NCBI GenBank assembly: GCA_017443585.1
Contig: JAFSYV010000278.1
Location: 1 to 33,433 of the forward strand
Origin: Lentisphaeria bacterium
GTDB lineage: Bacteria > Verrucomicrobiota > Lentisphaeria > Victivallales > Victivallaceae
Reading direction: 5' to 3'
DNA: 33,433 bases
Every line of letters starts with the position of its first letter. Positions within the stretch are counted from its first letter, which is position 1. The position numbers were made by a program, and so were the translations under genes. Below the pieces are notes generated by a model. That model saw nothing but the letters and a program-made list of their open reading frames with translations, ran no database searches and was not told the DNA's origin. This document shows positions 23,780-33,433 of this stretch, piece after piece.

Positions 23780-24532
23780 TCACTCTTGCGGGACGTAATT
23801 CTTTCTGGCGATGTCGACGGGGCGACAGGCGATCTCCTTCAGGAGCTTTGCCAGTTCTTCCGAACCGTGTTTCTCGGCGTAGTCGATCTCCTCCGCATAA
23901 ACCGGGACCACCTGCAGAAACCGGACGGCATTGCCTTGCGGGAAGACGATCCGGGCGGCATCGGCGGGATAATTTTCGGGGCAATCGAAGAACACGCCGG
24001 CGAGATGCGTATTTTCGGCAAACGGGCCCAGGGAAATGGTGTGGCCCCGGCCGATCCAGGTGGATTCCTCCCAGGGGAACCGGGCGAGAAAACGGAGCAG
24101 CCTCATGGGCCAGGCGAACTCGATCTTCTTCATGGACGCTTCATCCGTCGGCCAATCGGCGGGCAGGGAAAGCATGAGTTCGATCCGGTCGGGCGCCTTG
24201 CCCCGGTCCGCCCGCGGCAAGGCCATGCGCCGGGCCCCCATGCCGCAGGTGAAGAGCCGCAGGCAGGGGTATTTTTCCGTCGGCTCGATGATATAGATGT
24301 CGATGTGCATTCCGTCGGGGGAGGATATTTCGTGGAAAACCGACTTGCAGGGACCGAAATTGGTCTCCAGATGTTTTTCGAAGGCATCGGCCTCTTCCGG
24401 AGAGTAGGTTTTCCGCGAATCACGCTTGCCGCCGGGCCGCTTTTTCACCACGAAAATGAGCAGACCGGCCGCGATGACGGCCAAAGCCAGGCCCGATAAA
24501 AAATAAACGCTGTTCGTCTGGATCCACTGCAT
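23780..24532 (-). CDS. Membrane-anchored SUFU-domain protein
   Basis: 250 residues from ATG 24532 behind GGGGAGG. One membrane helix at residues 9-29, a KKRPGGKRDSRK linker, then a domain of the suppressor-of-fused type: FHEISSPDGMHIDIYIIEPT, LFTCGMGARRMALP, RIELMLSLPADWP and GHTISLG. In animals SUFU regulates Hedgehog signalling; in bacteria such domains occur as immunity proteins or as uncharacterised soluble proteins. A membrane tether is unusual. The late part (VRFLQVVPVYAEEIDYAEK) matches the C-terminal half of the family. Its own promoter lies at 24581-24609. Confidence 0.75.
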   Translation of the reverse strand: MQWIQTNSVYFLSGLALAVIAAGLLIFVVKKRPGGKRDSRKTYSPEEADAFEKHLETNFGPCKSVFHEISSPDGMHIDIYIIEPTEKYPCLRLFTCGMGARRMALPRADRGKAPDRIELMLSLPADWPTDEASMKKIEFAWPMRLLRFLARFPWEESTWIGRGHTISLGPFAENTHLAGVFFDCPENYPADAARIVFPQGNAVRFLQVVPVYAEEIDYAEKHGSEELAKLLKEIACRPVDIARKNYVPQE

Positions 24533-24580
24533 TGCGCCTACCTCCCCGAATTGACGAAAGAATCGATGAACTCCCGCATT

Positions 24581-24609
24581 AATATACCCCGTCCCGGCCC
24601 GAATTGCAA
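24581..24609 (-). promoter_or_regulatory. Promoter of the SUFU-domain gene
   Basis: Minus strand: TTGCAA (24609-24604), 17 bp, TATATT (24586-24581), about 50 bp upstream of ATG 24532. Confidence 0.75.
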
Positions 24610-24731
24610 GCCCGGCTGCGGTATAAAAACCCGAACCGGCCCCGGATTTTCGAATCCGTCCCGTTCGTGCCGTGGATTCCCATATTTCCGGCGGGGTCGG
24701 CAGGGGGAAAATCCCCGGGAGCCCATCGCCT

Positions 24732-25670
24732 TCAGCCATCCTGTTCCGGGATCCCGGCGGACCGGGCGTCGCGGGCGGAAAAGAAACATTGTTCCCACCG
24801 GTGATTGAGATGATCCCGGAAGAAGACGCCGTACTCGCCGTCGCCGTAGTAGTCGAAAAAGGCGCCGCGGACCGTCGTGCCGCGCAGGTGATCCAGCGAC
24901 GCGATGTCGAATTGACAGACCGGGGAATCCTCGACCGTCGAGATCTGGCGGTAAAGGTTTTCCTTTGCCCACACCGCGTCCCCGATGTGCGCGTGTCCGT
25001 AAAAGTGGGCGCGGAAATTCGGCGGCAGCGGCAGCATCTGGGCCAGGATGTCCGACGGCCGGTTGCCGCCGGGGAAGGCGCAGTGCGCGAAAGTGAATAC
25101 CGGTTTCCCCGTATCGGCGAAGCGTTTCTTGAGAGAAGTCCACGCCTCCCGGCGATAGGGATAGTTCGGCGCGGCGGGCAGGGTCTGGTGCTCCGCCCGC
25201 CAGCTGCCGTCGGCGGCGGCATGTCCGGAAAGAAAGAGCATCGTGAACTCGGGGAACTCTTCGCAGAACCAGAAATCGGAAAAACTCGGAGCCAGATGCC
25301 AGTTCTTTTTCCCCTTCACGGCCTCGAAGAAGGGGACCTGCGGCTTCTCCCCCCGCGCGACCATTGTCCGGTAGTAATCGAACTCGTGATTCCCCAGACA
25401 GTGATAGATCGGCAGCCGGAGAGAGTCCAATTTCCCGACCTGCATGTCGATCATGATCCGGAGTTTTTCCGGATCGCTCCCCTCGGCGGCGTCGCCGAGA
25501 CTGCAGACCGCCTCCGCCCCCGAGTCCAGTCGTTCGAAATCGGAAAACGCCGCCTCGAAGTAGCGTTCCGCCCGCTCCGGTTCGCTCTGCTGCAGGTCGG
25601 AGATCAGCCAGAAACGGCGGAGCGCCTCCCTGCGCGCGCTTTTGAAGACCGCATCCAGTGAAAATGCCAT
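24732..25670 (-). CDS. Calcineurin-like metallophosphoesterase
   Basis: 312 residues from ATG 25670 behind GAGGTG. Metal-binding motifs in order: Asp25 in ISDLQ, Gly59-Asp60 in SLGDAA, the catalytic GNHE at 93-96, His in TFAHCAF, and GHAH near 237-240. There is no signal peptide. These enzymes hydrolyse phosphomono- or diesters (nucleotides, phosphoproteins, UDP-sugars); the substrate is not readable here. It starts 36 bp after the hybrid kinase gene, so the two are probably co-transcribed and the esterase may act on that pathway. The C-terminus is Arg/Gly/Pro-rich and unremarkable. Confidence 0.85.
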   Translation of the reverse strand: MAFSLDAVFKSARREALRRFWLISDLQQSEPERAERYFEAAFSDFERLDSGAEAVCSLGDAAEGSDPEKLRIMIDMQVGKLDSLRLPIYHCLGNHEFDYYRTMVARGEKPQVPFFEAVKGKKNWHLAPSFSDFWFCEEFPEFTMLFLSGHAAADGSWRAEHQTLPAAPNYPYRREAWTSLKKRFADTGKPVFTFAHCAFPGGNRPSDILAQMLPLPPNFRAHFYGHAHIGDAVWAKENLYRQISTVEDSPVCQFDIASLDHLRGTTVRGAFFDYYGDGEYGVFFRDHLNHRWEQCFFSARDARSAGIPEQDG

Positions 25671-25706: not shown

Positions 25707-28700
25707 CTATACGGCGAACCGTTTCAATTCCTTCAGAAGTTCATCGACTTTCAGCGGCTTGGCGATGTGGCCGTTCATGCCCGCGCGCAGGGACCTTTCC
25801 CGGTCCTCCTCGAAGGCGTTGGCGGAAAAGGCGATGATCTTCAATCTCTCCCCGCCGGGAAGTTTGCGGATGAGGGAGGTCGCCTCGTACCCGTCCATCA
25901 CCGGCATCTGGACATCCATCAGGACGAAGTCGTAGGCATCGGCGCCCTTCTTCCGGATCATGTCCACCGCAACTTGGCCGTTGGGGGCGGTGTCGACGAT
26001 CATGCCCTGCTCCTCGAGCAGCAGCACCCCGATCTTCTGGTTGAGGCTGCTGTCGTCGACCATCAGGACCTTCTTGCCGCGGAACGACAAGGTCCGTTCT
26101 TCCCCGGCCGCCGGCTCGGGACCGCCCTCCCCGCAGAACTGCAGGAGCGCCCGGCGCAGATCGGAAAGGAAGAGCGGCTTCGCGAGGAATCCCGTGACTC
26201 CCGCCTCTCTTGCCTCCTTTTCGATGTCGGCCCAGTCGTAAGCGGTCAGGATGATGATGGAAGCGTCCCCCCCCACGGCCCCGCGGATGCGGCGAACCGT
26301 TTCGATTCCGTCCATTTCCGGCATCTGCCAGTCGACGATGTAGACCTTGAAGGGATCGCCGTGGCGGAGCGATTCCGCCGCGCGGATGACGGCCTCCTTG
26401 CCCGAAGCGCACCATTCGCTGCGCATCCCGGCCTGCCGGAGCATGTCGGCGACGCTCTGGCAGGTGTTCACGTCGTCATCCACGACCAGACCGTGCAGGT
26501 CCTTCACTTCCGGGAGCACGGGATCGGCGGCTTTCTTCTCCGCGATCCGGAAATCCAGCGAAACGACGAATTCGGTCCCCTCGCCCTTCTTCGAGCGGAC
26601 CGAGATCCGGCCCCCCATCATGTCCACGATGTTCCTGGTGATGGCCATTCCGAGTCCGGTCCCCTGGATGCCCGAGACCGTGGAGTTTTCTTCCCGCGTG
26701 AAGGGATCGAAGATCGTTTCGGCGAACTCCTCGCTCATGCCGATCCCGTTGTCCCGGCACCGGAATTCGAACGAGGCGTAGCCCGCGCCCGTCACGGCCT
26801 TCTGGATGATCCGCAGCGAGATCTTCCCGCCCGGATTCGTGTACTTGATTGCGTTGGAGATCAAGTTGAGCAGCACCTGATTGAGGCGCATCTTGTCGCA
26901 GTACACCAGCTCGTTCCGGACGTCCGCCGCATCGATGAGGAATTCGTGCCGTTTCGCCTGCATGTCCGCCCGGACGATCTCCCGCAGCGCGTGGATGATC
27001 TCCGCCAGAGACTCCGGCTTCTCGTTCAGGGTCATCTTGCCGGACTCGATCCGGCTCATGTCCAGGACGTCGTTGATCAGCGCAAGGAGATGCTCCGAGG
27101 AGCGCGCGATGGTGGCGAGATAATCCTCGACGCGGTCCTTGTCGTCGATGTGTTTCGCCGCAAGCCCGGTGAAGCCGATGATGGCGTTCATGGGGGTCCG
27201 GATATCGTGGGACATGTTGCTCAGGAAGGCGGTCTTGGCCCGGCTGGCGGCCTGGGCCATCTGCAATGCGTCTTCGAGTTCGTTCTGCTTCTTCTCGAGC
27301 TGTTCCCGCAGTTCGGATTCCTGCCGCCGCTGTTTCTCGATGGTTTCGGAGTACTCCGTCAGCTCCCGGTTGATCCCCGCCAGTTTCCGGTTGCTGACCC
27401 GGTAGCCGATCAAGGCGACGATCAATGCGACGATGCCCGCGACCGTGACGATCACGGGCAGGATATGGTCCTGCAGGAAGTCCATCATGGAATAGGTGTA
27501 GATCCGCCCCATGTAGGAATAGGCGGCCTTGTTGATGAAATCGGGGTCGAGGATCGTCAGACCGCGGTTCATCAGCAGCATGAGCCCGATGTTGTCCTCC
27601 GCGAAAGCCATGTGGATCTGGAAGTCGCTTTTGGCCCGCACCGTCCTGAGCGCATGGTATTTGCCCGGCTTCAGCAGGGCCTCCGACCGGAACCCGTTCA
27701 GGAACGTGCCGTCCAATGTGCCGTCCAGCACACCGTCGAGGCAGCCCTGGATGTCGTCGTGAAGCACGATCTTCGAATTCGGATAAGAATCCCTGGAGTA
27801 GTAGTACTGCATCAGGTTGTGCCGGTTGACGCCGATGCGCTTGTTCTTGCCGTCGCCGTAATCGTCCAGATAAGCAAGGTTGCTGGCGATGGTCGCCAGG
27901 CTTTTGCCGCCGATGATGCGGTAATCGTGCTTGACCGAATTGCTGACGTAAGCGGGGAACATCAGGTCGATCTTTCCCGCTTCGACCGCCTTGTATCCTT
28001 CCCGCTGATCGTCGAAGCAGATGAACTCCACCTTCAGTTTGTTTTCCAGTTTCAAAGCCTTGAGGAGCTCGCCTATGATTTCGATACATGCGCCGATGGG
28101 CCGGCCGTTTTCATCTTTTGCGGAAAAGGGGAGATATTTGTCGAAAAAGCCCACCCGGAGCACCTTGTGGCCGGCAAGCCATTTCCTTTCCTCAGTCGTC
28201 AGGTTGCGGCTCAGGACGGTATCGGAAAAGTACCGCTCCTGAAGCCGGGAAAAATAGAAGAGGTCGTTGTTGAGGACCTTTTCCATGGCGGAATTGATGT
28301 CGGCGATCAGATCGGGCCGGTTTTTGCCCGCCACCAGATAATAGGCGGACGCCCCGACCTTTTCGACCGCCGAGAGATCGCGTTTCGCCAGCATGCTGAG
28401 TTCGAGATCGAGATCGATCTTTCCGGCATACAAATCCGCCTCTTTCTTCGAAATCTCCTCATATTCGATGAGTTTGAAATCCACATTCTTTTTTCTGCAC
28501 CATTCTCTCAGGAGTTCGGCCAATATCGTCCCGCTCGTAACCCCTACTTTCTTGCCGTTCATGGACTTATAGTCACCGGGAGTGATGGAAGTGTTCTCTG
28601 CCGAAGAATACAGGTAGTAGTATTCATATCCCATCGGATCGTTCGGGAACAAAAACTCTTCAGCGCGTTCCTTCGTGTAGCTGATTTCATAGATGAGATC

Positions 28701-29006
28701 GACCTTCCCCGCCCGAAGCAGTCTCACGCTGTCGAAAAAACTGGAGCACGGAACATATTTCACATCCCATCCGGCGTAGGCCCCGATGGTCTGGATATAG
28801 TCGTAAGCGTAGCCGGAAACGGGCTTGTTCTGCTCGTCCACGATCATCTGCCGGTTGAATTCCTGATAGGCGACCCGGACGACTTTCCGGGGACTTTTTT
28901 CCGCGCCCCCGAGCGCCCAGGACAAAAGGAAAAGCATCATGCATAAGAAAGAAATCGTCCGGCGAAGCGAAATCCCGGCCGCTCTCCAATGCCCGTATCT
29001 TGTCAT
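25707..29006 (-). CDS. BvgS-like hybrid sensor histidine kinase
   Basis: 1099 residues from ATG 29006 behind AGGAGG; a longer frame upstream is out of register with that signal. Signal/anchor at 12-33. Two tandem periplasmic solute-binding type 3 domains (about 45-265 and 275-510; VRVAYQEFNRQ and LRVGFFDKYLPFSA starts). A membrane helix (about 520-545). A coiled-coil region. HisKA with His600 in SHDIRTPMNAIIGF, and HATPase (GIGMSEEFAETIFDPF, GTGLGMAI). Then two receiver domains with Asp892 (VDWQMPEMDG) and Asp1031 (MDVQMPVMDG). It senses a small molecule in the periplasm, probably an amino acid, and relays phosphate through its receivers. No Hpt domain is visible, so the last step needs an external partner such as the receiver protein at 10484. 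Confidence 0.9.
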   Translation of the reverse strand: MTRYGHWRAAGISLRRTISFLCMMLFLLSWALGGAEKSPRKVVRVAYQEFNRQMIVDEQNKPVSGYAYDYIQTIGAYAGWDVKYVPCSSFFDSVRLLRAGKVDLIYEISYTKERAEEFLFPNDPMGYEYYYLYSSAENTSITPGDYKSMNGKKVGVTSGTILAELLREWCRKKNVDFKLIEYEEISKKEADLYAGKIDLDLELSMLAKRDLSAVEKVGASAYYLVAGKNRPDLIADINSAMEKVLNNDLFYFSRLQERYFSDTVLSRNLTTEERKWLAGHKVLRVGFFDKYLPFSAKDENGRPIGACIEIIGELLKALKLENKLKVEFICFDDQREGYKAVEAGKIDLMFPAYVSNSVKHDYRIIGGKSLATIASNLAYLDDYGDGKNKRIGVNRHNLMQYYYSRDSYPNSKIVLHDDIQGCLDGVLDGTLDGTFLNGFRSEALLKPGKYHALRTVRAKSDFQIHMAFAEDNIGLMLLMNRGLTILDPDFINKAAYSYMGRIYTYSMMDFLQDHILPVIVTVAGIVALIVALIGYRVSNRKLAGINRELTEYSETIEKQRRQESELREQLEKKQNELEDALQMAQAASRAKTAFLSNMSHDIRTPMNAIIGFTGLAAKHIDDKDRVEDYLATIARSSEHLLALINDVLDMSRIESGKMTLNEKPESLAEIIHALREIVRADMQAKRHEFLIDAADVRNELVYCDKMRLNQVLLNLISNAIKYTNPGGKISLRIIQKAVTGAGYASFEFRCRDNGIGMSEEFAETIFDPFTREENSTVSGIQGTGLGMAITRNIVDMMGGRISVRSKKGEGTEFVVSLDFRIAEKKAADPVLPEVKDLHGLVVDDDVNTCQSVADMLRQAGMRSEWCASGKEAVIRAAESLRHGDPFKVYIVDWQMPEMDGIETVRRIRGAVGGDASIIILTAYDWADIEKEAREAGVTGFLAKPLFLSDLRRALLQFCGEGGPEPAAGEERTLSFRGKKVLMVDDSSLNQKIGVLLLEEQGMIVDTAPNGQVAVDMIRKKGADAYDFVLMDVQMPVMDGYEATSLIRKLPGGERLKIIAFSANAFEEDRERSLRAGMNGHIAKPLKVDELLKELKRFAV

Positions 29007-29230: not shown

Positions 29231-29773
29231 ATGCTGAAAGAGTATCCGTTGAACCGAGTTTTCACCCTGATCGAACCCGGCCCGGCGCTGCTGGTGACCA
29301 CCGCTGAGGGGCGGAAGAAGAATGTGATGACCATAACCTGGTCGCTGGCCATGAGTTTTTCCCCGACCTTCGGGATCGTCACCGGGTCGTGGAACCATTC
29401 CTTCGACACTTTGATGAAGACGCGCCAGTGTGTGGTCGCCGTCCCCGGCGTGGACCTGATCGGCAAGGTCATCGGCATCGGGACCTGTTCCGGGACCGAC
29501 ACGGACAAGTTCAAAAAATTCTCCCTCACCGCCAGGAAGGCGAAAGAGGTCGAAGCTCCCCTCATCGAAGAGTGTCTTTACAACATGGAGTGCGAAGTCG
29601 CCGACTATGTCGAGGACCACGGGATAATCGTTCTGTCGTGTCTCCGCGCCTGGGAGAACCCGGACCGCGCCGAGCGGCGGACCTTCCACGCCGTCGGCGA
29701 CGGCACATTCGTCGCCGACGGCGAGAAGTTCGATCTCCGCAAGGAAATGGCTTCCAAGCTTCCGCCCCTCTGA
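29231..29773 (+). CDS. Flavin-reductase-domain (FMN-binding split-barrel) protein
   Basis: 180 residues from ATG 29231, about 35 bases after the -10 element; GAAGGGACC is its ribosome site. The fold signature of the DIM6/NTAB flavin reductases is visible: PALLVTTAEGRKKNVMTITW, then SWNHSFDTLMKTRQCVVAVP and IGIGTCSGTDTDKF. Enzymes of this group bind FMN and reduce flavins or small substrates with NAD(P)H. It is a single gene under its own promoter, with a strong hairpin at 29821-29845 after it. Confidence 0.82.
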   Translation: MLKEYPLNRVFTLIEPGPALLVTTAEGRKKNVMTITWSLAMSFSPTFGIVTGSWNHSFDTLMKTRQCVVAVPGVDLIGKVIGIGTCSGTDTDKFKKFSLTARKAKEVEAPLIEECLYNMECEVADYVEDHGIIVLSCLRAWENPDRAERRTFHAVGDGTFVADGEKFDLRKEMASKLPPL

Positions 29774-29859: not shown

Positions 29860-30255
29860 TTACTTGCTCAGCACCTTGTGGAGCAGGACGCCTCCGCCGA
29901 CGACGGCGGCGCCGGCGACGAAGCCCACCACCATGCCCGCGATGGCGTCCTCGTTGAAGATGTCGGCGAGATCCGGGTTGGGGCACACGATCTCCCCTTC
30001 GGTGTCGTCGTCCTCCTCCTCCGCCTCCTCTTCTTCGTCATCGTCCGGATCTTCTCCGGGGGGTTCCGGCTCCGGGGGATTCCCGGTTTCCGGGGCATCT
30101 TCGCGTTCGAAGGTCTTCCCGGTCAAGACGGTCAGAGCCTCTTCCAGTTTCCGCTTGAGTTCCTCGTCGTTTCCGACGGCTTCCAGCAGTCTTTTGATGG
30201 AGTCGATGACGCTTTCGGCGGCAGCGGCGGTGTCGGTGTTTCTGCTTTCTTCCAT
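29860..30255 (-). CDS. Acidic tail-anchored small protein
   Basis: 131 residues. Residues 10-45 are a charged helix (SIKRLLEAVGNDEELKRKLE). The middle (about 55-90) is a Pro/Glu/Asp stretch of very low complexity with a run of more than fifteen acidic residues. A single membrane span closes the protein (GMVVGFVAGAAVVGGGVLL, then HKVLSK). So the acidic part would hang in the cytoplasm from a C-terminal anchor. It lies 3 bp after the second GTPase gene and is the last gene in the four-gene operon. No family recognised; an acidic partner for the basic surfaces of the GTPases is conceivable. Confidence 0.65.
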   Translation of the reverse strand: MEESRNTDTAAAAESVIDSIKRLLEAVGNDEELKRKLEEALTVLTGKTFEREDAPETGNPPEPEPPGEDPDDDEEEEAEEEDDDTEGEIVCPNPDLADIFNEDAIAGMVVGFVAGAAVVGGGVLLHKVLSK

Positions 30256-30258
30256 GAT

Positions 30259-31272
30259 TCACTCCTCCTCGATCTTGTTTTCTTTCCAGTTGGTGTTTTT
30301 GGATTCCTTTTCACCTTCGATGAACTTTTCCCGGAGTTCATCCGCGTCCAGCTTCATGCCCGAGGCGAAAAAGGCCTTCGCGGCCTTGCCGACGCCGTAG
30401 GTGATCCCGGCGGCGATGGGCACTTTCAAAAACGGCAGGAAACTTGCCGCCAGCTTCCCCGCGACGGAGCCGCCCGCCACCCCGGCGAGCATGGTGAGGA
30501 TGCTCTTGTCCACGGCGTAGCCGTAAGCCGCGCCGATCCGGTAGATCATGTACGCCTCGTTGGCCATCAGGGGCGCGACGTCGGCCAGCGGGAGCGGGAT
30601 CAGCGCGATCGCCGCCGCCCGGCCGGCCCCCCAGTTGATGTAACCGTCGGCCTCGTCGCCCGCCCGGCGTTCCCAGCGGGCGCGCATGTTGACGTAATAG
30701 GTGTTCCAGCGGTTGCGGAAGCTGAAGAGCTCATCGTCGGCGCCGTCGATGGCGCGGGCGGTCATTTCCAGCGCCCGGTCGAGCAGCTGGGCAAGTCCCG
30801 TCCGGTTGTGGCTGGAAATCATCACGATCCGCTCCGCCGGGAGCAGATCCAGCAGCTGGGACATCATGGCTTCGGTCTGCTCCCTGCGCAGCGTTTCGGA
30901 CTTGGTGACCACCAGCAGCACCTTGTCGGAAAACTGCTCGATGAGCCTGGCGTCCGCGGACTGTATCCTCGCGCCGGAGCCGTCCACGCAGTACCAGATG
31001 TTGTGGACGAGATTTTCCACGGAATCGGAGCTCAGGCGTTTGACCACTTCGCCCATGATGAAAGAGGAATACTGTTCCACGGTCCGGCCGGGCTCCATGC
31101 CCTCGCTGTCGATGAAATTGGCGACGTCGGTCTCGTAGACGTCAAAGCCGCGGGTCGTGGCTTCGGCGTCGCCGATGGCCTCATCCGGAACAGTCCCCGC
31201 GTGGGTCACCGCCTGAATGAGGCTGGTCTTCCCCGCGCCGGTCTTGCCGCAGACGAGAATGTTGGGTTTCAT
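30259..31272 (-). CDS. DUF697-type membrane GTPase, second of a tandem pair
   Basis: 337 residues. G1 GKTGAGKT at 9-16, G3 DSEG at 55-58, G4-like TKSE at 123-126 (the usual Asp replaced by Glu), and a G5-like SSHNRTGL at 153-160. It shares with its upstream neighbour the NILVCG start and the IWYCVDGSGARIQSAD motif typical of YfjP/Era-like 'ribosome-binding-type' GTPases. Residues 220-310 are DUF697-like hydrophobic helices (AAIALIPLPLADVAPLM, LTMLAGVAGGSVAGKLAA, GITYGVGKAAKAFF), so it is membrane-associated. It starts 1 bp after the first GTPase gene. The altered G4 suggests changed guanine specificity. Confidence 0.75.
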   Translation of the reverse strand: MKPNILVCGKTGAGKTSLIQAVTHAGTVPDEAIGDAEATTRGFDVYETDVANFIDSEGMEPGRTVEQYSSFIMGEVVKRLSSDSVENLVHNIWYCVDGSGARIQSADARLIEQFSDKVLLVVTKSETLRREQTEAMMSQLLDLLPAERIVMISSHNRTGLAQLLDRALEMTARAIDGADDELFSFRNRWNTYYVNMRARWERRAGDEADGYINWGAGRAAAIALIPLPLADVAPLMANEAYMIYRIGAAYGYAVDKSILTMLAGVAGGSVAGKLAASFLPFLKVPIAAGITYGVGKAAKAFFASGMKLDADELREKFIEGEKESKNTNWKENKIEEE

Positions 31273-31273
31273 G

Positions 31274-32758
31274 TCACTTCACCTCGATTTTGTTTTTTTT
31301 GTATTCCGCGTAGAACTGCTTGAAAAGTTCCACGTCGAACCCGAGTTCGGGGATTGGCCGCCCCTCGATGCGGGCGATGGCGCATTCCTCGAAATTGCTT
31401 TTGACGTAGAGGCCCATGGCCCCCGTCAGCGAGGCGGCCACGGCGGCGTTGATCGCGCTGCCGAGGCCGGGGATGAGTTTCAGCAGACTTGTCGCCAGAA
31501 AGACGCCGGCCAGCCGGGCGACGAAGGGCAGCGCCGACTGTTTGACGGCTTCCTCCCGGAGTCCGTAGAGCCCGGCGAGGGTGGCGATCATGGTGACCTG
31601 GATCGGCACGATGACCGCGGCGTCCGAAAGGGGGATCGGGACCGCGCCCGCCCCGGCGGCCGCCGTGGCCGCGGTGGCGATGATGGCTTTGGCCTTGCCC
31701 GCCTTGTCGCGGACGGCCTGGATCTTGGCTTCGCGGTCGATGCGCTGGGCCTCCATGAAGGCGTCCTTGTAGGCCTCGGGGAGCATGGCGTACGAAAGAT
31801 TCATCAGCTCCCGGCACCCTTCGGAGCCGCCTTCCTCGTCGCAGGTGAAGATGATCCGGTCGGCCGGGATCCCGGAATCCATGACGACCTGTTGCAATGC
31901 CGCTTTCTGGTTCGGGCGGGTGATGTCGCTCTTGGTGATGACGACGATCACGTTCTTCGTATTGAAGATGTTCCGGATGAGATTCCGGTCGCAGTCCGTC
32001 ACGCGCGCTCCGGGCCCCTGGATCGTGTACCAGACCAGGTGGATGTGATCGTCCACGTTCGGGCTCTCCTGCCGGGAACGGACGAACCGCCGGGTCTCCT
32101 CCGTGAAGGATTCTTCCGTTTCGCCGAGTTCGAGTCCCTTGGAGTCCCAGATCCTCACCAGATCGTTCTCGTAGCAGTCGTAGCCCATGGTTTTCGGGGC
32201 GCCGTCACCGATGGCGGAATCGGGGACGACGTCGCCGAGGATCGCCTTGACCAGCGAACTTTTGCCGCTGCCGGTGTAGCCGCAGACGAGGATGTTCGGC
32301 CGTTTGCCGAACCGTGCCCGCGCTTCTTCGTACTTGCTGTTGAATTCCTTTTTTGCGTCGAAGTTTTCCATTTCGGACCTCCATTGTTGGTTGGTTGGGT
32401 TATCGGGTTCCTCCCGGATGATTCCGATCGCGAAATCTTCCGCAGCGGCCCCGTACTTTTCTTTCATACAGGTGCTTAAGCCGTCGAAGCCGGTTTTTTC
32501 CGGAAGCCCCAGGCAAGAAACGGCCATTTCGAGCGAACTGCCGAATTCCGCCTCGGTTTCCGCAGCATGCATCATGGCGTCGAAACAGCCGACGGCGACG
32601 CCGGACCTTGCGAACACACGGCATTTCCCGAACTCTTCGAAGGAAACGGCCCGCACGGCTCCGGGACGCGGAACGGTCAGCACCACCCGGTGGGAAAGGT
32701 AAAAACCGATCTGCCGCTCCGCCGAGACGAGGAGGGCTCCGAATCTCATCCTATTCAT
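31274..32758 (-). CDS. DUF697-type GTPase fused to an unrecognised N-terminal domain
   Basis: 494 residues from ATG 32758, with an alternative internal start at ATG 32371 (GGAGGTCCGAA just before it, 365 residues). Residues 1-125 have GC-rich coding signal and a compact look (RFGALLVSAERQIGFYLSHR, GVAVGCFDAMMHAAETEAEF) but no family I know. From residue 160: G1 GYTGSGKS (160-167), G3 DSKG (205-208), G4 TKSD (275-278) and VWYTIQGPGARVTDCD. Then DUF697: AAAGAGAVPIPLSDAAVIVP, MIATLAGLYGL and LIPGLGSAINAAVAASLTGA. It would hydrolyse GTP at the inner membrane. The internal strong ribosome site suggests two products or a lost stop codon between formerly separate genes. Seven bp from the upstream gene. 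Confidence 0.75.
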   Translation of the reverse strand: MNRMRFGALLVSAERQIGFYLSHRVVLTVPRPGAVRAVSFEEFGKCRVFARSGVAVGCFDAMMHAAETEAEFGSSLEMAVSCLGLPEKTGFDGLSTCMKEKYGAAAEDFAIGIIREEPDNPTNQQWRSEMENFDAKKEFNSKYEEARARFGKRPNILVCGYTGSGKSSLVKAILGDVVPDSAIGDGAPKTMGYDCYENDLVRIWDSKGLELGETEESFTEETRRFVRSRQESPNVDDHIHLVWYTIQGPGARVTDCDRNLIRNIFNTKNVIVVITKSDITRPNQKAALQQVVMDSGIPADRIIFTCDEEGGSEGCRELMNLSYAMLPEAYKDAFMEAQRIDREAKIQAVRDKAGKAKAIIATAATAAAGAGAVPIPLSDAAVIVPIQVTMIATLAGLYGLREEAVKQSALPFVARLAGVFLATSLLKLIPGLGSAINAAVAASLTGAMGLYVKSNFEECAIARIEGRPIPELGFDVELFKQFYAEYKKNKIEVK

Positions 32759-32765
32759 GGCGAAG

Positions 32766-33134
32766 CTACGTTTTCAGCAGTTCCCGGTCGAGAATCAGTT
32801 CCATCCCTTCGGCGATGGCGTGGAGCCGTTCCAGATGCAGCCGGGCCGCAACCTCGCCCTCCGGGAGCTCGAAGACCCACTCCGCCAGTTCCGCCGGAAA
32901 CACCGCCCGTTTCCCCTCCATGATCCGGCAGTGGTCCTGGTGGATGATCCGGAGCGCCTGCGAGTACGCACCGATCTTCCGGAGCGCCTCGCTTCGGCTG
33001 TTCCAGTCCTCCAGGGTCGCCGCGGACACCAGACTTTCCGCCGCGTCGCAGAAAAGGTCGTCGGCGAGACGAAGTCGGTAATGCAGGTCGAGGATCATTT
33101 CCCGCAGCAGGATCTGTCGGCTTCTTTCACTCAT
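32766..33134 (-). CDS. Small helical protein, first gene of the GTPase operon
   Basis: 122 residues from ATG 33134; an in-frame ATG at 33164 has no better ribosome site. All predicted helical: LLREMILDLHYRLRLADDLF, SLVSAATLEDWNSRSEAL and HLERLHAIAEGMELIL. Charged, with no membrane span and no motif I recognise. It lies 7 bp before the fused GTPase gene, so the products probably act together, perhaps as an adaptor. A promoter is at 33160-33188. Confidence 0.6.
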   Translation of the reverse strand: MSERSRQILLREMILDLHYRLRLADDLFCDAAESLVSAATLEDWNSRSEALRKIGAYSQALRIIHQDHCRIMEGKRAVFPAELAEWVFELPEGEVAARLHLERLHAIAEGMELILDRELLKT

Positions 33135-33159: not shown

Positions 33160-33188
33160 GTCATAATTTACGCCCGACGCCCTGCCAA
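33160..33188 (-). promoter_or_regulatory. Candidate promoter of the GTPase operon
   Basis: Minus strand: TTGGCA (33188-33183), 17 bp, TATGAC (33165-33160). Weaker than the other promoters. If used, the leader before ATG 33134 is only about 20 nt. Confidence 0.45.
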
Positions 33189-33233
33189 ATGATGTCATAC
33201 CGCGGAATTTCAGCGAAAATCCCTCTTCCCGCG

Positions 33234-33262: not shown

Positions 33263-33433
33263 ATGGAGAAACGGAATCCGTCATGCCGGGGAGAGGTCGG
33301 GATCGTCATGGACAAGAAAAGCGAGCAGCTGCTGAGAATCTTTGTTTCGATAGCTCCCGTACCAATCTGGGGAAGAGTATAGGCTTCGGACTTGCGCGCC
33401 ACTTCCGGCAGGTTTTCCCCTCCGAAAAGAGCA
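33263..33433. other. Right-end sequence, gene content unclear
   Basis: Downstream of the plus-strand promoter, ATG 33308 begins a 24-codon frame (MDKKSEQLLRIFVS...) that stops at TAG, and ATG 33283 opens a frame that runs past the window end but has no ribosome site inside the expected transcript. The minus strand is also open across this stretch. I cannot say which, if any, is a gene. Confidence 0.3.

Follow-up and report, generated by a model that had tools for sequence, protein, structure and literature searches.

Two GTPase genes and two small companions near the end of a Lentisphaeria contig raise the question of whether they form one system and, if so, what turns that system on and to what end. 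The contig (JAFSYV010000278.1 of assembly GCA_017443585.1; its 33,433 nucleotides were analyzed whole and are called the window below) belongs to the 4.1 Mb draft genome of a gut bacterium not in culture, 92% complete with 7% contamination, in which it is contig C171. Four adjoining open reading frames lie on the minus strand in the order H-NG1-G2-A, with the same intergenic gaps of 7, 1 and 3 bp as in an earlier reading made from the sequence alone (the original prediction). Comparison with homologous loci lends good support to the view that the four genes belong together and that G1 (the GTPase domain of NG1), G2 and H are partners. We further propose, with a probability of about one half, that they encode an accessory machine built of membrane GTPases, part of a WYL-controlled response that is probably induced by DNA damage or by phage.

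The four genes and their fused relatives

H (32766-33134) encodes a helical protein of 122 residues with no confident Pfam match, which corresponds, as a free protein, to the N-terminal domain seen in fused homologues; in an AlphaFold model of the fused form this region folds into three long helices (residues 3-109, mostly at a predicted local distance difference test score, pLDDT, of 70-89). NG1 (31274-32758; 494 residues) combines an N domain (residues 1-124) with the septin-like GTPase G1 and hydrophobic C-terminal helices. G2 (30259-31272; 337 residues) is a second septin-like GTPase with the G4 motif TKSE and hydrophobic C-terminal helices, and A (29860-30255; 131 residues) is an acidic protein with a glycine-rich motif, GFVAGAAVVGGG. 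The earlier description of A as tail-anchored agrees with its single strong membrane segment at residues 107-125 (29881-29937, minus strand), where hydropathy averages 2.13 across 19 residues.

Homologous loci were typed with module profiles built here for H, N, G1, G2 and A. All genomes compared are drafts, mostly metagenome-assembled genomes (MAGs), and genes outside the window were called by a simple script; an alignment that mixed fused and split proteins was discarded because split NG1 fell on the G2 half. In eleven loci (L036-L045 and L067, the last cut by its contig end), G1 and G2 form a single open frame of ∼800-900 residues, and an additional G1-G2 fusion, in L049, is cut inside G2. 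The N-terminus is H-like in most fusions, and profile-profile comparison of H with the fused N-termini gave a probability of 97.3 (E 2e-11). In L039, N, G1 and G2 are fused and a separate H lies upstream. What the window encodes as separate parts is thus covalently joined elsewhere, which argues that the parts make up one system. Most fusions have largely lost the hydrophobic segment of G1 and retained that of G2, as expected if one anchor serves the joined pair.

The split arrangement is conserved as well. A search for the four genes in this order found it in four other Lentisphaeria genomes (L034, L061, L062 and L068), where the G2 homologues are 60-86% identical, and H stands directly upstream of NG1 in 13 of the 13 split-type NG1 loci examined. 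Shorter versions are H-NG1-G2 (L070, L072), H-NG1-A (L111, L112) and H-NG1 (L051, L052), and L046 has retained H and G2 and lost G1. Of the 12 split loci in which A could be looked for, 7 have it; upstream of the fusions in L040, L043 and L045 lies a similar acidic protein whose glycine-rich membrane tail shares the form GFVAGAAVVGGG. N is a gene of its own in L035, which carries H, N, G1 and G2, and again in L157; the NG1 fusion therefore joins two modules.

Could these instead be unrelated genes, among them two housekeeping GTPases, that came to share an operon by chance? Single homologues do exist (G2 alone in L078 and L110, G1 alone in L050, L113 and L118), and lone GTPases with unconserved small partners were what the original prediction had held would dissolve the system. 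The eleven fusions already contradict a chance association, H accompanies NG1 at every split locus examined, and the conserved order, shared promoter and patchy presence described below speak in the same direction, leaving this explanation very improbable. The earlier notion of a heteromeric machine thus holds insofar as the fusions indicate that the pair works as a unit; the roles suggested for it (sensor, remodeller or defence effector) remain suggestions.

Several related arrangements are recorded here in their own right. L035 (4018-6521) is probably a recombinant locus, with a split-type G1 that is 90% identical to that of the window and a G2 that is 88% identical to the fused-type G2 of L044. 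Its separate G1 gene begins at the position corresponding to NG1 codon 130, where the window has an internal Shine-Dalgarno sequence, GGAGGT, and an in-frame ATG (32369-32382, minus strand), a possible second start that would yield free G1. L157 (2237-4179) contains a WYL gene, the promoter element described below and free H and N genes without any GTPase, which suggests that H and N may be a unit of their own. A third G2-like protein is encoded downstream of the fusion in L040 (7735-9084), L043 (8054-9424) and L067 (3162-4667); that of L040, whose P-loop is clearly degenerate (GPDQFTNTD) and whose gene is followed by a MotA/ExbB-like gene, is likely a pseudo-GTPase. Small proteins that have the G2 hydrophobic C-terminal domain but no GTPase domain occur in L056, L057, L110, L116, L117 and L119, in gene strings that look unrelated; in L116 a vWA gene adjoins.

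Family assignment of the two GTPases

Both GTPases have an intact P-loop and DxxG. They also share the NILVCG start, the G-x-GAR motif and hydrophobic C-terminal helices, as had been noted before, along with the changed G4 motif of G2 (TKSE, compared with TKSD in G1). The glutamate is kept in 13 of 14 aligned G2 sequences, the remaining one having aspartate, and TKSE is therefore a family trait and no local defect. The earlier label of DUF697 GTPases needs one correction: DUF697 scored 23.5 and 23.7 bits, under its cutoff of 27.7, and Septin scored above its cutoff in both proteins (31.9 and 29.3 against 26.2 bits). Only the distant G2 homologue in L078 passed the DUF697 cutoff (35.9 bits). 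The Dynamin_N profile was not reached by either window protein (16.5 and 12 against 27 bits).

The residue after DxxG, where a catalytic glutamine would stand, is leucine or methionine in both proteins. GTPases in which a hydrophobic residue replaces this glutamine tend to work as dimers. The GL/GM pair, the Septin scores and the matches to PDB sequences, which are mostly septins, place the window proteins near the septin, GIMAP, Toc34 and IRG GTPases; they differ from these in being bacterial, in having membrane helices of their own and in the glutamate of the G2 G4 motif, and nothing points to polymers. With the YfjP-type/DUF697 GTPases they share a hydrophobic DUF697-like region behind the GTPase domain, and differ in falling below the DUF697 cutoff, a comparison made at the level of that profile.

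Bacterial dynamin-like pairs such as Cj-DLP1/DLP2 and LeoABC likewise consist of two adjoining GTPase genes whose products are membrane acting and heterotypic; such pairs are often operon neighbours and assemble as heteromers (PMC6104087). The NG1 profile matched Cj-DLP1 (5owv) in the PDB at E 1.2e-6, and LeoA was among the Foldseek matches, which were used for the class of the G domain only. In contrast to those pairs, the window proteins stay below the Dynamin_N cutoff and could not accommodate the long neck and trunk of a dynamin, their G domains are nearer to septins and GIMAPs, many of their relatives are fused, and H, N and A are additional parts.

A shared promoter element and the divergent WYL gene

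Ahead of H lies a putative regulated promoter (33165-33197, minus strand) made up of the palindrome TGACATCATTTGGCA (33183-33197), a 12-bp spacer and the -10 box TAAATT (33165-33170). The element was defined as TGACA-N5-TGNCA-N12-TAnnnT, its second arm having been widened from TG[GT]CA, which omits TGACA variants. TGACA-N5-TGKCA has a single match in the window (33183-33197; 0.08 expected) and is found upstream of 18 of 28 homologous operons, against 0.01 expected from shuffling, usually 37-51 bp ahead of the start codon. Of 76 distinct sites, 41 have a TAnnnT box exactly 12 bp further on; the second most frequent offset, 14 bp, accounts for 12. A hand tally over 198 genomes of the class gave 58 sites, against 7 for a reversed-pattern control, in the 35 genomes with G1 or G2, an enrichment that is partly built in because the element was derived from these loci. 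Its independent part is the near-equality with the control in the 163 genomes lacking G1 and G2 (56 against 45). A shorter pattern gave the same picture, with 60 against 10 sites in the positive genomes and about 99 against 91 in the negative ones.

A WYL-domain regulator gene is divergent from the operon at most loci with enough flanking sequence. The protein in L035 scores above cutoffs for WYL (50.1 bits) and WCX (45.7 bits), as do its homologues, and WYL relatives occur also without G1 or G2. Some element sites in GTPase-less genomes adjoin WYL relatives or TerY-P triads (e.g., G012, G050, G116 and G120), which supports the WYL family as the probable reader of the element. The window retains the first ten codons of this gene, MDKKSEQLLR (33308-33337, plus strand), with the same start as the L035 protein. 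Its frame (within 33308-33433) then departs from all relatives, in the last hundred bases of the contig, and stops near the contig end; the contig ends at 33433, so that the neighbouring regulator gene is cut off. An insertion sequence was considered as the cause and set aside, as the departing 104 bases are single-copy in the genome; neither an insertion nor a misassembly is shown. Only one other good WYL copy is present in this genome, on contig C47.

If the -10 box is placed at -12 to -7, TGNCA, the inner arm, occupies -29 to -25 relative to the predicted start. The WYL activators PafBC (PMC11804915) and SiwR (PMC10693628), both sensors of single-stranded DNA, work from position -26. A plain sigma-70 promoter with TTGGCA as its -35 box was rejected, since the spacer would be 12 and not about 17 bp. 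A constant spacing, combined with the absence of a proper -35 box, speaks for activation. The WYL protein could instead be a repressor of the CapW/BrxR type that leaves the promoter upon infection: CapW and BrxR are palindrome-binding WYL repressors of defence operons (PMC9122588, PMC9122601), and here too the divergent WYL gene shares its promoter region with the operon. A simple blocker needs no set distance, yet the 12-bp spacing to the -10 box recurs in 41 of the 76 sites, with 12 at the next offset; no good -35 box stands at 17 bp, and CapW sites differ in overlapping the -10 box, which the CapW repressor covers (PMC9122588). We regard repression as possible, with the odds against it. The predicted activator resembles the PafBC and SiwR regulons in its helix-turn-helix (HTH)-WYL-WCX architecture, the inner palindrome arm at -26 and DNA-related genes among the targets; it differs in phylum and in palindrome, in having membrane GTPases and MoxR-VWA among its targets, and in that activation here is a prediction.

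Candidate regulon, function and distribution

The genome of the window contains five element sites and zero control sites. They precede this operon, a second H-NG1 copy, a DUF445 gene that follows a WYL gene, a patatin-dynamin operon and an ankyrin/DUF6994 pair. The patatin-dynamin operon (L170, 151-5120, on contig C172) encodes a 1241-residue fusion of a patatin phospholipase with a dynamin-type GTPase and a second dynamin-type GTPase, with the element upstream. On contig C47, UvrD-MoxR-VWA genes lie near the second, partial H-NG1 copy and are preceded by a variant of the element with an 11-bp spacer. The same string recurs elsewhere: UvrD-MoxR-VWA stands directly upstream of the fusion in L049 and L054, L042 reads GTPase fusion, MotA/ExbB-like, UvrD, MoxR-like AAA+ and VWA/metallopeptidase (DUF2201), and MoxR-like and VWA-like proteins accompany the GTPase in L042, L049, L054 and L058. 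In genome G113 the element is found ahead of the GTPase operon, a TerY-P operon and UvrD-MoxR-VWA-vWA. These positions argue well for co-regulation, the operon apparently sharing its promoter type with a defined gene set.

Similar parts are known from vWA-MoxR conflict systems, some of which carry AIG-type GTPase effectors of the GIMAP-septin clade (Kaur et al., PMC7159879), and from TerY-P triads (PMC11090510, and Anantharaman 2012 as cited there). Common to those systems and the present gene set are a MoxR AAA+ protein, a vWA protein, a septin-clade GTPase and a kinase/phosphatase triad, here under one promoter type. The vWA-MoxR comparison covers the MoxR, vWA and GTPase parts of systems that also include a VMAP or iSTAND component. 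In contrast to vWA-MoxR systems, the VWA protein is here of the DUF2201 metallopeptidase type and the GTPases are a core pair rather than a fused effector.

A TerY-P triad (kinase, vWA and PP2C) adjoins the operon in L034, L111 and L112 in differing arrangements, which could point to a Ter-type system for chemical or metal stress, related to tellurite resistance. The lone G2 of a Fusobacteriaceae MAG (L078, 3773-7523) fits such a system, standing in the string G2-YceG-TelA (toxic anion resistance). TelA was discarded as a general partner, since none of the 21 Lentisphaeria genomes with G2 that were searched has it, and no close homologue of TerY occurs in the genome of the window; a Ter-type role is accordingly improbable.

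In the machine that we propose, H, NG1, G2 and A would act as one modular assembly. G1 and G2 would form a heterotypic, septin/GIMAP-like pair whose G domains probably meet each other, and the hydrophobic C-terminal helices of both are predicted to dip into the inner membrane. H would be an adaptor to G1, to which it is joined in the fusions, N a second adaptor domain, and A a putative glycine-zipper, tail-anchored membrane partner. The operon would be accessory and probably held off until needed; the divergent WYL regulator would then most likely activate it from the TGACA-N5-TGNCA palindrome, with the inner arm at -26, much as PafBC and SiwR activate their targets. DNA damage or phage DNA is the probable inducing signal, which would also switch on the UvrD/MoxR AAA+/VWA, TerY-P kinase/vWA/phosphatase, DUF445 and patatin-dynamin operons. 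The output may be a membrane-acting response that either seals or excludes at the membrane or disables the infected cell.

A number of observations count against this proposal. Five loci (L035, L051, L052, L070 and L072) lack A or have something else in its place, and the lone G1 and G2 homologues listed above belong here as well. AlphaFold models of two fusions (pLDDT 60 and 65, predicted template modelling score 0.37) gave no confident G1-G2 interface when one was sought, and are too weak to reveal domain contacts or how the N domain folds. The WYL gene of the window is broken or misassembled after codon 10; that its product reads the element is judged from proximity, and activation over repression from spacing alone, CapW and BrxR being repressors that also bind promoter palindromes. 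Finally, a PADLOC search with the four proteins matched no catalogued anti-phage system.

That search returned nothing beyond a weak P-loop resemblance to LeoA, mad8 and others, and none of PADLOC, NCBIfam and Pfam contains a model specific to this system. The idea of a defence effector, raised earlier, gains nothing from known families, as no match goes beyond the weak LeoA similarity and no relative was found on phage or viral contigs; a defence or stress role is favoured instead by the WYL regulator and by the promoter element that the operons share.

Relatives of the operon are found in Lentisphaeria (chiefly Victivallaceae) from metagenomes of rumen, colon, faeces and other sources; single matches come from MAGs labelled Fusobacteriaceae and Lachnospiraceae, the latter possibly mis-binned. 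The G2 profile matches 35 of the 198 genomes of the class at E <1e-30 (some partially or via G1) and the G1 profile 26 of them at E <1e-40. Most species of the window's own genus are without the G1/G2 operon, and its presence is patchy, as for accessory genes. Plasmids gave only distant partial matches (25-30% identity).

This distribution bears on whether the same machine and regulon might instead serve to mend the cell's own envelope or to tolerate DNA damage, with the GTPases reshaping or sealing membranes after stress like mycobacterial IniA, which mediates membrane fission (PMC6715688). Mycobacterial regulators of this promoter type control DNA-damage genes (PMC11804915, PMC10693628), UvrD is within the regulon, and searches of viral and phage collections with G2 returned no relative. 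The patchy, accessory distribution (35 of 198 genomes) argues the other way, as do module swapping (in genome G102, G1 is 90% like that of the window and G2 88% like the fused type) and the TerY-P and patatin modules, which are more typical of conflict systems. A role in repair or tolerance is on balance rather unlikely.

If the proposed induction by DNA damage or phage is taken further, one WYL activator might coordinate the GTPase pair, patatin-dynamin, DUF445, MoxR-VWA, UvrD and a kinase switch, so that one DNA signal would set off a layered membrane response; we put forward such an undescribed Lentisphaeria immunity or stress regulon only tentatively. It would be, in its logic, a bacterial counterpart of interferon-induced GTPase immunity. 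Bacterial membrane GTPase pairs without a known purpose are common and are rarely tied to a signal. The comparison supplies a definable operon, a physical partnership deduced from gene fusions and a promoter element open to searching and testing. It connects GTPases of the septin clade with a regulator of the DNA-damage type and offers a candidate regulon (MoxR-VWA, TerY-P, UvrD, patatin-dynamin and DUF445) of a poorly studied gut phylum.

Downstream of the operon, past a flavin reductase gene (29231-29773), positions 25707-28940 of the window encode a hybrid histidine kinase with substrate-binding (SBP_bac_3) and receiver domains. A SUFU (Suppressor of fused) domain protein is encoded at 23780-25222 and adjoins a calcineurin-like phosphoesterase gene (24732-25670), the called frames of the two overlapping.

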